Shown: in pieces, positions 13,773 to 63,265 of the stretch
Layout: every line of letters begins with the position of its first letter
Numbering within the stretch: position 1 is the stretch's first letter
Assembly (NCBI GenBank): GCA_016186205.1
Contig: JACPMA010000017.1
Coordinates: forward strand, 1-64,000
Length of the DNA: 64,000 nt
DNA from: Candidatus Peregrinibacteria bacterium
Lineage (GTDB): Bacteria > Patescibacteriota > Gracilibacteria > UBA1369 > UM-FILTER-53-11
Direction of reading: 5' to 3'
Notes under the pieces: model-generated
The model's database searches: none
Seen by the model: only the letters and a program-made list of their open reading frames with translations
Told to the model about the DNA's origin: nothing
Made by a program: the position numbers and the translations under genes

Positions 13773-13943
13773 GCTTCACTTTGTAAAGACAACGGCACTC
13801 GTCGCTAAAACAAAACCACCCGCTTGCTGAGAGCTTATTTATAATGACAACTTCGTTCATCTCTGCGCGACATGCTGCTCGCTCGGGCTGCGCCTAGGCA
13901 GCGCAAAAGACCGTTTATACGCCTCGCTAAACTCGCTCGGCGG

Positions 13944-13973
13944 CGCAACAGAAGCGCTTCGCTTTCTGTTGCG
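13944..13973 (-). terminator. Stem-loop directly downstream of ssrA
   Basis: CGCAACAGAA pairs with TTCTGTTGCG, with an inner GCG-CTT-CGC extension, 3 nt beyond the mature tmRNA 3' end. There is no U-run, so it may act in 3' processing rather than as a classical terminator. Confidence 0.45.
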
Positions 13974-13976
13974 TGT

Positions 13977-14401
13977 TGGTGGAGATGGGGGGAATCGAAC
14001 CCCCGTCCAAGGATAAAGAGAGGCCACGTCTACAATCATAGTCCGTTTTGAATTTTTGTCCGTGCGGATAAAAAAGGAACAAAAAGCCCGCGCGGCTTAA
14101 GCATAAAATTTCGGCTCATCCGCATGCCGGCGGATTTGCTTGAGCCTCATGAGTTGCGCCTTTCGCGGTTATGAGGCCTTGCCGCAAGAGACGTCAGCCG
14201 ATAAAAATCAGCCGAGCACGATTAGGCAAAAGCCGGGACGCGCGCAGGAGCTCCGCGAAGAGCCTTGAGCGCACGGACAGTTGCCATTTCGCCTGCATTA
14301 GCAGTTAATTTGCGCTGGACGGATATAACGGGGGACAGCGCGACCCCGTGAATGCAGAAACCTGTCTTTCAAAGATCCCTGTCGAATACCGGTGCATCCC
14401 C
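13977..14401 (-). ncRNA. ssrA: tmRNA (transfer-messenger RNA)
   Basis: The 5' end GGGGATGCACCGGTATTCGACAGGG and the 3' end with T-arm GGGGTTCGATTCCCC and CATCTCC-A-CCA form the tRNA-like domain with a 7-bp acceptor stem (one G-U pair). About 425 nt, one piece. The tag frame most likely resumes at GCT after TTAACT and reads ANAGEMATVRALKALRGAPARVPAFA then TAA. That is 26 residues, longer than the usual 8-15, with a small hydrophobic C-terminus as expected for proteolysis. The resume codon is inferred from the ANxx pattern. smpB is at 52488-52943. Confidence 0.95.
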
Positions 14402-14427
14402 TACGCGAGCGCAGCGAGCGCTTCTAG

Positions 14428-27669: not shown

Positions 27670-27772
27670 TTTTAGCTGTTCGCCAACTGGCGTATGGTCC
27701 AAGTTTGATTTCATAAACGTTGTCCTTATATTATAATGCACGAGGCAATTTTAAGATTGTCTTTATTTTTAT

Positions 27773-27799
27773 AAAAGGCTCGCCCTGCGAGCTCGCCTA
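27773..27799 (+). repeat. GGCTCGCC start-codon-proximal element, efp copy
   Basis: AAAAGGCTCGCCCTGCGAGCTCGCCTA ends directly before the efp ATG. It can fold as GCTCGC-CCT-GCGAGC. Copies with the same AAAAGGCTCGCCC lead and GCTCGCCT end lie before pheT (37861-37898) and aguB (62382-62416). It takes the place of a Shine-Dalgarno. Confidence 0.7.
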
Positions 27800-28360
27800 A
27801 TGGCAGAGTCAATCACCGATTTAAAGGTAGGCCGCCTAGTAAATTACAACAACGAGCCGTGCATAATTGTTTCGAACGGTTTTATGCGTACGGCCCAGCG
27901 CAAGCCGGTTATGCGGACAAAGTTGCGCGGAGTTATTACCGGCAAAGTTTTTGAAAAAACATTCATTGCCGGCGAAAATTTTGAACTGGTCAATATTGAA
28001 AAAGTGCGAGCACAATATATGTATAAAGATGCAGATACGGCGTATTTTATGGACTCTGCGACATTCGATCAATTTTCCATGCCGCTTGAGGTCGTGGGCG
28101 AAATGGTGAAATTTTTAAAGGAAGGAGAGGACGCGGCGGTTACTCGTTATGAAGGAAGGCCAATCGGCATTGATTTGCCTGTGAAGGTTGCCTTGAAAGT
28201 TTCCGAAACAACCCCGGGTGTTCGTGGAGATACTGCGCAGGGAGGAACAAAAGCAGCGACCCTTGAAACGGGAATAGTTGTGCAGGTGCCGCTGTTTATT
28301 GAAGAGGGAGACAGTATCCGCGTCAATACGGAGACAGGGGAGTATGTGGAGCGCGCATAG
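27800..28360 (+). CDS. efp: Elongation factor P lacking the modifiable tip lysine
   Basis: 186 aa, three OB-like domains, normal EF-P length. EF-P relieves ribosome stalling at polyproline. The strongly conserved RTKLRGVITGKVFEKTF anchors the alignment: E. coli VKPGKGQAF corresponds to MRTAQRKPV here, so the position of K34 is Gln (Q33), followed by Arg-Lys. Neither lysyl, rhamnosyl nor aminopentanol modification fits a Gln. The C-terminal domain (ETTPGVRGDTAQGGTKAATLETG) is intact. TATAAT at 27732-27737 gives a leader of about 55 nt containing the GGCTCGCC element. Confidence 0.93.
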   Translation: MAESITDLKVGRLVNYNNEPCIIVSNGFMRTAQRKPVMRTKLRGVITGKVFEKTFIAGENFELVNIEKVRAQYMYKDADTAYFMDSATFDQFSMPLEVVGEMVKFLKEGEDAAVTRYEGRPIGIDLPVKVALKVSETTPGVRGDTAQGGTKAATLETGIVVQVPLFIEEGDSIRVNTETGEYVERA

Positions 28361-29887: not shown

Positions 29888-29961
29888 CGGGGTGTAGTAT
29901 ACCGGTAGTACGAGCCCATGGGGTGGGTTTAGACCGGGTTCGATTCCCGGCACCCCGACCA
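29888..29961 (+). tRNA. tRNA-Pro, anticodon GGG
   Basis: Acceptor CGGGGTG/CACCCCG, D-arm GTA/TAC, anticodon stem AGCCC/GGGTT with loop ATGGGGT, T-arm CCGGG-TTCGATT-CCCGG, CCA encoded. It reads CCC (and CCU). TATAAT at 29874-29879 is only 8 nt upstream, so the primary transcript begins almost at the mature 5' end. Confidence 0.95.
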
Positions 29962-30010
29962 CTACAAACGAGCGAAGCGAGTTTGCTTCGTTCCCTCGGC
30001 CCCGCAGGGT
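29962..30010 (+). repeat. Post-tRNA repeat, copy 2
   Basis: ACGAGCGAAGCGAGTTTGCTTCGTTCCCTCGGCCCCGCAGGG; closely related to 24504-24554 and to the CGAGCGAGTTTAGCGAGG segment downstream of ssrA. Folds as AACGA.CGAAGC...GCTTCGTT. Confidence 0.55.
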
Positions 30011-35457: not shown

Positions 35458-37860
35458 TTAGCCCCCGCGGATCACAAAGCCGCTGCCCTGCAGCGCGGAG
35501 AAAATGCGTTGTTGTATTTGTTTCATTTCTTCGTCAGTGAGGGTGCGGTCCGGCGACTGGAGTAGCACACGGAATGTGAATGATTTTTTATCAGCGCCCA
35601 AACTTTTATCTTCGAAAATATCAATGAGCGAAACATTGGCGATGAGTTGCTGGTCGGTTTTTCGAATAAGTTCAAGCGCCTCGCGCACGGGCGTAAGTTT
35701 TGGAACAAGTACGGAAATATCGATTTCAATTCCGGGAAAACGTGGCAGAGAATGGTATGCATGCTGTGTTTGGCCGACCGCGACGAGTCGCGAAAAATTG
35801 ATTTCAAAAGCTGCAACGCTGGATTCAATGCCGAAATTCTTGAGTACTTGCGGATGTACTTCGTATATTGTTGCAATTTCTTGGCCTGCGCTTTTAGCCG
35901 CAGCACATTTTGATGGATGAGCATATGGCGGAAGAGTTTGCGCTACATCTATGCGTACTTTCGCGCCGAATTGATCCAAAAAAGCCTGAAGTGCGCCAAG
36001 CGCGTTATAGAAAATTTCTTGAGATTGCTTCGTCGTTTCGCTCCTCGCAATGACACCTGTGATAAATTTTTCTTCGCGCGGAAAATATTCTTTTTCTTTT
36101 ATATACGTCCTGCCGATTTCATACAGCTTAAGATTATCGCGTGAATAAAGCGTTACGGCAGCGGATTTAAGCATATTTGGCAGCAGGCTGATGCGGAGAT
36201 GCGTCTGGTCTTCTGTAAGCGGATTTTCGAGCCGCATATGAAGTTCTTCCGGCAACAGCGCCTTTCTCACTTCCGGCGCGCCATAGAACGAATATAGAGA
36301 AACTTCGGTAAATCCGAGTCCCATTGAAAAAATCTGCCGAGTCCGATGTTTTAAAACGCGTTCCCGATTTTCTATTGGAAGTTTGATCGGAAGCATTGGC
36401 AAAATCGGAGGAATTTTCTCATATCCGTGCATGCGCGCGATTTCCTCAACCAAATCGTCTTCGATGTTAATGTCTTTTGTAGCGCGGAAGCTCGGCACAG
36501 TAATTTTTAAGAATCCCTTTTTTGCTTTACCAACCGCGAATTCAAGCGCTTTAAGATGCGCCGCCATTTCTTTTTCTGAAATATCCACGCCAATTTTTTT
36601 ATTTACTTGAGCTATATTAAGAAGCACGGAAACCGGTTTATATTTTCGTGGATAAACGTCAGTTACCGGCCCGGCGAGTTTTGCAGTCGGGCAAATTTTG
36701 AGAATAAGTTCCACTGCGCGATGAAATGCAATTCCCGTAATTTCCGGATCCAGACTTTTTTCAAATCGCTGCGCCGCGTCTGTGCGCAGCCCGTGCCGCT
36801 GCGCGGTTTTCCGAATCATAATCGGATTCCATGTCGCAACTTCTAAAATAATATCGGTTGTTTTTGGCGTGATTTCGGAGTTGAGCCCGCCCATCACTCC
36901 GGCAATGCCAAGAACTGTATCGCCGTTGGTTACGAGCGCATCTTCTGTGGAAAGTTGGCGTTTTTTGTGGTCGAGGGTCGTGGTAACTTCGCCGGATTTG
37001 GCATATCGAATCACAAAATGGTCGTTTTCAACCACGCGGCGGTCAAATGCATGGAGCGGTTGGCCGAGTTCGAGCATCACATAGTTGGTGATATCTACAA
37101 TATTATTCACCGGCCGCATGCCAACCGCGAGTAAGCGATTTTTGAGCCACTGCGGTGACTCTTCAACTTTTATTCCGAAAACAATCGTCGCCAAAAACCG
37201 CGCTGCAATTTCTTTTTTTGCGATATCCACTTTTGCCTTCGGCCCGCTGCCGGTTAATCTTCCCGGCGTTCGCGCCACGAATGATTTCAATTTTTTACCA
37301 AGGAATGCGGCAAATTCTCGAGCCATACCATAATGCCCCCATAAATCCGGCCGATGAGTGATGGATTTGTTGTCGATTTCAAAAATAACGTCGTTTAACC
37401 CAAGCGCCTCTGCCAAAGGCGTGCCCGGTTTTGTTTTTGGAAAGTAGAGAAGTGAAACGCCCGTTTCTTTCATACCCAATTCTTGTTCAAGGCACAGCAT
37501 TCCTTCAGACCGAACGCCGCGCAAATCTTTTGCTTCAATTTTCAACCCCGTCGGCAGCACTGTTGGCGCAACGGCAATAGGAATGCGGTCCCCGATATGC
37601 ATCGTTACCATTTGGCCAAAAATAAGATTAAGCGGTTCCTTGCGTCCGATGTCCACCTTTGCCACATTGAGCTTGTCAGCATTCGGATGTTTTGAAAATT
37701 TGAGCATTTCGCCAATAACCACGCCTTCGAGCCCGCGCCCTTGATCTTCATATCCTTCCACCTCGCATGTCCGCAGCGTCAATAAATCCGCCAGCATTTT
37801 AGCCGAATACTTTGCCGGAATATCCACAAATTCCTTAATCCAATTGAGAGAGACTTTCAT
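35458..37860 (-). CDS. pheT: Phenylalanyl-tRNA synthetase beta subunit
   Basis: 800 aa, normal length for PheT. Order seen: N-terminal MKVSLNWIKEFVDIPAKYSAKML, tRNA-binding OB domain (VVIGEMLKFSKHPNADKLNVAKVDIG), B3/B4 editing domain (EIDNKSITHRPDLWGHYGMAREFA), B5 domain (IEDDLVEEIARMHGYEKIPP), a catalytic-like core, and a C-terminal anticodon-binding FDX-ACB domain (YHSLPRFPGIEIDISVLVPK). It works with PheS at 39612. The ATG follows a GGCTCGCC direct-repeat element rather than a ribosome site. Confidence 0.96.
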   Translation of the reverse strand: MKVSLNWIKEFVDIPAKYSAKMLADLLTLRTCEVEGYEDQGRGLEGVVIGEMLKFSKHPNADKLNVAKVDIGRKEPLNLIFGQMVTMHIGDRIPIAVAPTVLPTGLKIEAKDLRGVRSEGMLCLEQELGMKETGVSLLYFPKTKPGTPLAEALGLNDVIFEIDNKSITHRPDLWGHYGMAREFAAFLGKKLKSFVARTPGRLTGSGPKAKVDIAKKEIAARFLATIVFGIKVEESPQWLKNRLLAVGMRPVNNIVDITNYVMLELGQPLHAFDRRVVENDHFVIRYAKSGEVTTTLDHKKRQLSTEDALVTNGDTVLGIAGVMGGLNSEITPKTTDIILEVATWNPIMIRKTAQRHGLRTDAAQRFEKSLDPEITGIAFHRAVELILKICPTAKLAGPVTDVYPRKYKPVSVLLNIAQVNKKIGVDISEKEMAAHLKALEFAVGKAKKGFLKITVPSFRATKDINIEDDLVEEIARMHGYEKIPPILPMLPIKLPIENRERVLKHRTRQIFSMGLGFTEVSLYSFYGAPEVRKALLPEELHMRLENPLTEDQTHLRISLLPNMLKSAAVTLYSRDNLKLYEIGRTYIKEKEYFPREEKFITGVIARSETTKQSQEIFYNALGALQAFLDQFGAKVRIDVAQTLPPYAHPSKCAAAKSAGQEIATIYEVHPQVLKNFGIESSVAAFEINFSRLVAVGQTQHAYHSLPRFPGIEIDISVLVPKLTPVREALELIRKTDQQLIANVSLIDIFEDKSLGADKKSFTFRVLLQSPDRTLTDEEMKQIQQRIFSALQGSGFVIRGG

Positions 37861-37898
37861 CCAGGCGAGCCCGCCCGTGGGCGAGCCTTTTTATTAAT
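37861..37898 (-). repeat. GGCTCGCC start-codon-proximal element, pheT copy
   Basis: Minus strand TTAATAAAAAGGCTCGCCC-ACGGGC-GGGCTCGCCTGG directly before the pheT ATG. Two direct GGCTCGCC copies with an inner CGCCC/GGGCG hairpin. Confidence 0.7.
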
Positions 37899-37921
37899 TA
37901 AATGCGGCCAACGGCCGCTCC

Positions 37922-62342: not shown

Positions 62343-62381
62343 GTGTATATAGTAATATCTGTATGCAGAATGAACAACCTT

Positions 62382-62416
62382 TAATAAAAAGGCTCGCCCG
62401 CAGCGGGCTCGCCTAT
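62382..62416 (+). repeat. GGCTCGCC start-codon-proximal element, aguB copy
   Basis: TAATAAAAAGGCTCGCCCGCAGCGGGCTCGCCTAT directly before ATG 62417. Two GGCTCGCC direct copies and an inner GCCCG-CAG-CGGGC hairpin. Same layout as the efp and pheT copies. Confidence 0.7.
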
Positions 62417-63265
62417 ATGAAAAAAATTGTAAAAATCGGCCTAGTTCAAATGGCTTGCAGTAAAGATGCGGATGCAAATCTTAAAAAAGCTGTTGCCGGA
62501 ATTGAAGATTGCGCTTCGCGCGGCGCGCAAATCATCTGCCTGCCGGAACTTTTTTTGAATCCTTATTTTTGCCAAGGACCGAAAGACGATCATTATTTTG
62601 ATTTGGCGGAAAAGATTCCCGGCCCAACTACGGATGCGCTCGCTAAACTCGCTCAAAAAACAAAAACCGTAATTCTATGCCCTTTATTTGAAAAAACAGC
62701 TGCAGGAAAATTTTTCAATTCCATTGCAGTGTTGAATACAGACGGAAAATTTCTCGGCACATACCGCAAAATGCATATTCCGTCGTTGCCGCCGGATTTT
62801 TATGCAGAAGATTATTATTTTGAAAAAGGGGAGGAGGGTTTTAAAGTTTTCGATACGGCCTACGCAAAAATTGGGCCTATGATTTGTTATGATCAATGGT
62901 TTCCGGAAGGGGCAAGAATCGCTGCAGCAAAAGGCGCGCAGATTTTATTTTATCCGACAGCCATCGGATGGCCGGTAAATCAATCGCAGGAAAAAAGCTC
63001 TGCTGAACATGAAGCATGGCAAATCACGCAGCGCAGTCACGGCATCGATAATAATGTATTTGTTTGCGCCGCGAATCGAGTTGGCCGCGAAGGAGATTTA
63101 AAATTCTGGGGTACTTCTTTTGTGAGTGATCCCTATGGTCGGGTTTTAGCAAAAGCTTCGATTGACCACGAAGAAAATCTCGTAGTTGCGTGCGATCTTT
63201 CGCTTATTGATGAGATGCGCAAGGAGTGGCCGTTTTTGGAAGAGAGACGCATTAAGTTAGCCTGA
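62417..63265 (+). CDS. aguB: N-carbamoylputrescine amidase
   Basis: 282 aa nitrilase-superfamily enzyme. The Glu-Lys-Cys triad is visible: LPELFLNPYFCQ (Glu), YRKMHIPSLPPDFYAEDYYFEKGEEGF (Lys), and GPMICYDQWFPEGAR (Cys). HIP.....YEKxYF and YDQWFPE are typical of N-carbamoylputrescine amidase, which yields putrescine, CO2 and ammonia. ATG 62417 is chosen over 62363, since the extra codons cover the GGCTCGCC element. agmatine deiminase follows at 63850. Confidence 0.92.
   Translation: MKKIVKIGLVQMACSKDADANLKKAVAGIEDCASRGAQIICLPELFLNPYFCQGPKDDHYFDLAEKIPGPTTDALAKLAQKTKTVILCPLFEKTAAGKFFNSIAVLNTDGKFLGTYRKMHIPSLPPDFYAEDYYFEKGEEGFKVFDTAYAKIGPMICYDQWFPEGARIAAAKGAQILFYPTAIGWPVNQSQEKSSAEHEAWQITQRSHGIDNNVFVCAANRVGREGDLKFWGTSFVSDPYGRVLAKASIDHEENLVVACDLSLIDEMRKEWPFLEERRIKLA

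Follow-up and report, generated by a model that had tools for sequence, protein, structure and literature searches.

What kind of sequence stands flush against the start codons of efp, pheT and aguB in this Candidatus Peregrinibacteria genome, and does it act there or has it only settled there? The first-pass annotation of the window, by which is meant the whole 64,000-nt stretch of DNA analysed, had placed one repeat directly before the ATG of all three genes, and each of the copies (3/3) was borne out at its position. The elements and their genes are as follows.

27760..27799, plus strand: element before efp, consisting of an A/T-rich tract, the hairpin AGGC-TC-GCCC TGC GAGC-TC-GCCT and 1 nt before ATG 27800 (sequence; R1 model, 56.4 bits; curated list)
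27800..28360, plus strand: efp, elongation factor P, 186 aa (Pfam EFP_N, EFP, Elong-fact-P_C)
37861..37902, minus strand: element before pheT, consisting of an A/T-rich tract, the hairpin AGGC-TC-GCCC ACGGGC GGGC-TC-GCCT and 2 nt before ATG 37860 (sequence; R1 model; curated list)
35458..37860, minus strand: pheT, phenylalanyl-tRNA synthetase beta chain, 800 aa (Pfam B3_4, tRNA_synthFbeta, FDX-ACB, B5)
62378..62416, plus strand: element before aguB, consisting of an A/T-rich tract, the hairpin AGGC-TC-GCCCGC A GCGGGC-TC-GCCT and 2 nt before ATG 62417 (sequence; R1 model; curated list)
62417..63265, plus strand: aguB-like carbon-nitrogen hydrolase, 282 aa (Pfam CN_hydrolase)

The copies read TATAAAAGGCTCGCCCTGCGAGCTCGCCTA (efp, plus strand), AATAAAAAGGCTCGCCCACGGGCGGGCTCGCCTGG (pheT, minus strand) and AATAAAAAGGCTCGCCCGCAGCGGGCTCGCCTAT (aguB, plus strand), each abutting its ATG, and share one layout, in which an A-run is followed by GGCTCGCCC, a short variable centre, GCTCGCCT, 1-2 nt and the start codon. 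The two GGCTCGCC words within a copy are direct repeats, and the overall anatomy is that of an inverted repeat, GGC-TC-GCCC...GGGC-TC-GCC. The frequency is well beyond chance, the doublet GGCTCGCC..GCTCGCC occurring five times in the 1.39-Mb genome, compared to once for the reversed control. A scan of the window with Rfam covariance models left the element unmatched at the gathering score and found only the tmRNA and one tRNA. The nearest relatives of the EF-P encoded here are from Patescibacteria MAGs.

A repeat family at gene starts

The three window copies form one sub-family within a larger, genome-specific family. In searches of the whole genome (a draft in 18 contigs, about 92% complete at 91.9%, with start sites assigned from a simple codon model), the start-adjacent placement and the orientation both held, and a wider structural family came to light. 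Searches made without regard to starts returned seven copies of the GGCTCGC sub-family, six of them directly before starts and in the same orientation (GT2 glycosyltransferase, efp, pheT, aguB, pilC, lysA), while the exact core CTCGCTKCGCTCG was found 19 times against approximately 0.08 expected from simple base counting, with eight occurrences directly before starts, all oriented alike. Structure scans revealed the same layout with other stems, and a covariance model built from the first seven copies recovered more, so that at least 23 elements, checked letter by letter, are now known before 22 ATG starts and one GTG start. All 23 start copies share one orientation, but because some were found by seeking start-flush copies, this count carries most weight for the GGCTCGC sub-family (six at starts, one mirrored) and the exact core (eight at starts), which were found regardless of starts. 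The strict orientation claimed in the annotation therefore stands for 23/23 start copies and gives way in one copy of the same sub-family, which is mirrored after the atpE stop. A loose hairpin scan around all starts was too permissive and was left out.

Each element runs from an A/T-rich tract of approximately 14 nt (TTWWTTWATAAAA), alike in all elements and ending in ATAAA, through a hairpin with a TC/TC internal loop to a gap of 0-4 nt (1 nt in ten elements, 2 nt in seven) and the start codon, for a total length to the start codon of approximately 33-56 nt. On the mRNA strand the internal loop is a 2x2 TC/TC loop kept in 19/23 elements; the variants are TCC/TCC (once) and 7x7 loops in ssb, rplN and rpsL. 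The outer stems next to the loop include GGC/GCC, CGC/GCG, GCC/GGC and CAC/GTG, and the inner stems GC/GC, AC/GT, GCTC/GAGC, GCCCGC/GCGGGC and GGC/GCC. Since these stem changes are paired on both sides, the hairpin is conserved, with the caveat that the copies may share recent ancestry. The genes that carry the element are listed below.

Ribosomal: rpsL, rpsG, rpsJ, rpsI, rplV, rplN (GTG start), rplE, rplK
Other: efp, pheT, aguB, GT2 glycosyltransferase, pilC, lysA, purQ, rpoD, secA, prfA, purF, glmS, gcvP-like gene, ssb
Without identity: the gene whose element lies at C8:48451

Identities are backed by Pfam for efp, pheT, aguB, rpoD, rpsI, glmS, the gcvP-like gene, purQ and GT2, and come from reading the protein sequences for rpsL, rpsG, rpsJ, rplV, rplN, rplE, rplK, secA, prfA, purF, ssb, lysA and pilC. 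The rpsL frame (L163:4540-4698) ends in a stop after 52 aa, 156 nt before rpsG, probably owing to a frameshift in the draft assembly. Ribosomal-protein genes make up 8/23 of the carriers (hypergeometric probability approximately 1e-6 against an assumed 54/1350) and 3/12 in the genome-wide pattern list (p approximately 0.01), a bias which argues that the copies are compatible with, or useful for, high expression.

Gain of the element as a block

When the start codon was made part of a generalised pattern, this genome gave 13 matches and the reversed control none, and the same pattern was absent from 88 further genomes of the order, of which five belong to the same family. Twelve of the 13 matches are gene starts and the thirteenth is the 3' end of a tRNA-Arg. 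The element was likewise not found at the orthologous ribosomal junctions of relatives, whose operons were located with an L5-like query rather than the exact own protein. The rplX-rplE gap is 35 nt here versus 5 in the relative G002, the rpsS-rplV gap is 49 nt versus 11, and the tuf-rpsJ gap consists entirely of the element. A natural empty site lies within the genome itself, where fusA and efp have a common promoter and leader (TATAAT..CACGAGGCAATTTTAA..GATTG), which in fusA runs directly into CTTTTT-ATG and in efp is followed by the element before the ATG. Together, the element-free junctions and the fusA leader indicate that the element arrived as a block after this lineage and its relatives had diverged. 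Exact GGCTCGCC doublets in relatives were set aside as mostly coding sequence (for example, Gly-Glu-Pro repeats) and not the element, and an integron-type cassette array was rejected for the cluster of matches on contig C9, which is the rpsL-fusA-tuf and S10/spc ribosomal region. No copy of the element was found in a scan of one viral contig, and no description of start-flush repeats in Patescibacteria was found in the open-licence literature. The family is real, unusual and lineage-specific, and is most safely described as a palindromic mini-repeat that has dispersed recently and become fixed at gene fronts in a single orientation.

The closest known parallels are the REP sequences, palindromic repeats tagged with a GTAG or CGTC tetranucleotide at one end, of which the CGTC-type families lack a dedicated transposase (PMC3733652). 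The element resembles REP sequences (PMC3733652) and REPINs (PMC3116915) in being a dispersed, extragenic, imperfect palindrome of 20-40 bp with variable stems and lineage-specific copy number. In contrast to REP sequences, however, it has neither GTAG nor CGTC beside the hairpin, being flanked by ATAAA-type sequence on one side and by 0-4 variable nt and the ATG on the other, and its copies precede start codons at a distance of 0-4 nt, oriented alike. A Y1 (RAYT-type) transposase (PF01797) was not found in the 91.9%-complete genome (G000), in which the controls were detected. By its tag and, for the GTAG type, by the transposase as well, the element falls outside the REP superfamilies.

These observations bear on the possibility that the element is a purely selfish REP- or MITE-like palindrome of no benefit to the host, which either inserts in one orientation by start codons or survives only there in a compact genome. 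The near-identical copies within sub-families (ACGCTCACTGCGTTCGCGT before rpsJ, rplK and rpsI), the absence of the element from relatives and its insertion as a block are consistent with this explanation. On the other hand, a single orientation and a gap of 0-4 nt are hard to reach by neutral survival alone, the bias toward ribosomal-protein genes is strong and no Y1 transposase was found in the 92%-complete genome, so that a selfish origin and nothing more is unlikely, if still a serious contender. A mobile mini-repeat was one of the two possibilities suggested in the annotation; a dispersed, inserted element is upheld by its absence in relatives, the shorter orthologous junctions and the fusA/efp pair, but the search yielded no transposase candidate to go with it.

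Mirrored copies, related cores and the opposite strand

The copies are neither at random positions nor mostly terminators at gene 3' ends, the two patterns that the annotation had named as incompatible with its reading: only three mirrored copies end genes, namely atpE, rpsJ and tRNA-Arg. The mirrored copy of the GGCTCGC sub-family (C13:15327-15350) lies between atpE and atpF, 1 nt from the stop of the former and 12 nt from the latter, and the tRNA-Arg copy lies at the tRNA 3' end in mirror orientation relative to that tRNA. With the layout of a sense terminator, the atpE-atpF copy could tune the output of the c-subunit relative to the downstream ATP synthase genes. In addition, cores related to the element but lacking the A/T tail are present beside stable RNA genes, including the following in the window.

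14404..14420, minus strand: related core GCGCTCGCTGCGCTCGCGT, lacking the A/T tail, a few nt upstream of the 5' end of the tmRNA (exact core match C16:14406-14418)
13977-14401, minus strand: tmRNA, with the related core just 5' of it
29965..29985, plus strand: related core in mirror orientation (CAAACGAGCGAAGCGAGTTTG), no A/T tail, just after tRNA-Pro(ggg) at 29888-29961

Tail-less related cores directly follow two tRNA-Pro genes. These cores and the mirrored copies show that the family is not confined to start codons, and the position of the cores at the edges of tmRNA and tRNA-Pro genes hints that its role may lie in marking or processing RNA ends instead of being purely ribosomal. The tmRNA and two tRNA-Ser genes (L091, L103) also have a near-identical 3' trailer of approximately 60 nt (window 13919-13976 for the tmRNA) with two hairpins, ACACGCAA..GCGAAGC..TTGCG and then CGCCGAGCGAG..AGCGAGGCG.

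On the opposite strand the internal loop becomes a tandem G-A in a CGAG context, and the common TGC and TTC loops read GCA and GAA, which are GNA triloops. Both tandem G-A and GNA triloops stabilise hairpins. The G-A strand has the better folding energy in 16/23 elements, the worse in six and an equal one in one element, which favours a role or an origin on the opposite strand. For a selfish palindrome, these features would give one strand a stable single-strand hairpin, as in single-strand transposition systems.

Alternatively, it is possible that the opposite strand is the functional one, its G-A hairpin followed by TTTTAT acting as a weak intrinsic terminator, antisense at gene fronts and sense at gene ends. 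The better folding of that strand points in this direction, as do the mirrored copies, all three of which have the layout of a terminator, and a single rule, with the hairpin adjoining the gene body and the A/T tail facing away from it, fits both placements. Like intrinsic terminators, the opposite strand presents a G+C-rich hairpin and then a T tract; unlike them, the element has a conserved tandem G-A loop and a tract of just 3-5 T (compared to 6-9 T in several clear terminators of this genome), and most of its copies would be antisense at gene starts. Other terminator-like hairpins in the genome are not clustered in antisense at starts, and a need for antisense termination at ribosomal operon genes is left unexplained, which makes this explanation improbable. 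Sense termination was rejected for the start copies, whose T tract belongs to the antisense strand.

Gene starts without Shine-Dalgarno pairing and a possible leader role

The annotation was correct that the three window genes have no normal Shine-Dalgarno, but this is a condition of the whole genome. SD-like 4-mers precede 19/224 starts versus 17.7 in shuffles, a statistic drawn, like the others on gene starts, from approximately 0.38-0.53 Mb of stretches partly picked around matches, and pairing of starts to the own or the canonical 16S tail was not above shuffles. At the 16S 3' end the anti-SD has decayed from CCTCCTTT to CCTCTTTTT. The CCTCC anti-SD has been lost at the own 16S 3' end (L271; C18, approximately 174 kb) and at several of the relatives' 16S loci (L285-L312), with CCTCTTTT(T) in this genome, G004, G018 and G029, TCTCTTTTT in G003 and ATTCCCTT in G020, while other relatives keep CCTCCTTT. 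In this order, with no SD to be seen at its ribosomal genes, the anti-SD seems to be undergoing repeated decay. Several relatives with similar decay are free of the element, so decay and element are not strictly linked. The 16S rRNA gene (C18:171049-174169) was matched as two pieces approximately 600 nt apart, which suggests an intervening sequence such as an intron.

The altered 16S tail raises the possibility of a split ribosome-binding site, in which the A-run would pair with that tail (CCUCUUUUU) and the hairpin would bring it near the AUG, as in T4 gene 38. The T4 genes 38 and 25 (PMC3014915) likewise have a hairpin between an upstream tract and the AUG, but they are single genes rather than a dispersed family of at least 23, and most elements here are without upstream Shine-Dalgarno pairing. 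The change of the own anti-SD to CCTCTTTTT would suit such a site, and the tails of the gcvP-like gene, ssb and rplN (AAGAGG) pair with it at approximately -8 kcal/mol; most elements, however, pair weakly (mean -2.2 kcal/mol versus -1.2 when shuffled), those of secA, rpsJ, rplK and rpsI are unpaired, and starts overall show no SD-like pairing. A split site is accordingly very hard to credit for the family.

A promoter is similarly far-fetched. The A/T-rich tract could serve as a -10 region, making the element a promoter with a structured leader, and TATAAA or AATAAA is indeed present in the tracts. However, -35 sequences at 16-18 nt spacing are not enriched (4 matches in 4/23 elements, versus 7.3 in shuffles), many copies lie within ribosomal operons, and TATAAT-like boxes in this genome are concentrated 12-20 nt before the ATG, the distance expected where leaders are absent or very short, and not at approximately 33 nt. 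T occupies position -1 at 56% of starts, and the gene starts together point to many leaderless or near-leaderless genes. A second start-proximal repeat, an unstructured ACCCTCTACCCTCAACCCTAAATCC-type sequence, lies directly before the ATG of several genes, at starts on C9 near 131.7, 145.6, 159.4 (rpsC) and 168.5 kb.

The explanation preferred here, if tentatively, is that these are genome-specific, dispersed palindromic mini-repeats at gene 5' edges that most likely act as an mRNA 5' boundary. Judging from the sequence, the mini-repeat probably acts in the mRNA leader: the block would be transcribed as part of a leader or intercistronic gap, and the TATAAT upstream of the efp copy implies that this element should be in the transcript. 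The unpaired A/U-rich tract may then favour ribosome loading or RNA cleavage, and the self-contained hairpin that follows would leave the AUG free. Downstream of an element, the AUG region is no less unpaired than in other genes (0.54 versus 0.47, p = 0.03), and the weakest mRNA-strand hairpins reach only approximately -3 to -4 kcal/mol. Spread was probably by a mobile or copying process, with copies kept where they are compatible with, or helpful to, core-gene expression. An A/U-rich single-strand tract followed by a stem-loop between cistrons is the arrangement of RNA-processing or stabilising hairpins in operons. The element shares this arrangement but differs in that its sequence recurs as a family in many operons and abuts the start codon.

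A role in translation, the other reading in the annotation, is plausible because of the start-flush position, the ribosomal-protein genes and the SD-less genome. The element is nevertheless absent from the majority of gene starts here and is therefore not required. The stronger version, that an SD-less lineage with a decaying anti-SD recruited the hairpin as a portable translation-initiation or 5'-end module before dozens of core genes, including those for ribosomal proteins, EF-P, RF1 and the main sigma factor, is rather doubtful. A start-flush hairpin bears on the way in which ribosomes locate start codons in bacteria that do without Shine-Dalgarno pairing. If the element is only selfish, it would represent an unusually precise association of a mobile palindrome with gene fronts, which extends even to ribosomal operons. 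A start-flush repeat at core genes of one lineage, together with the element-free orthologous junctions of relatives, provides natural pairs with and without the element.
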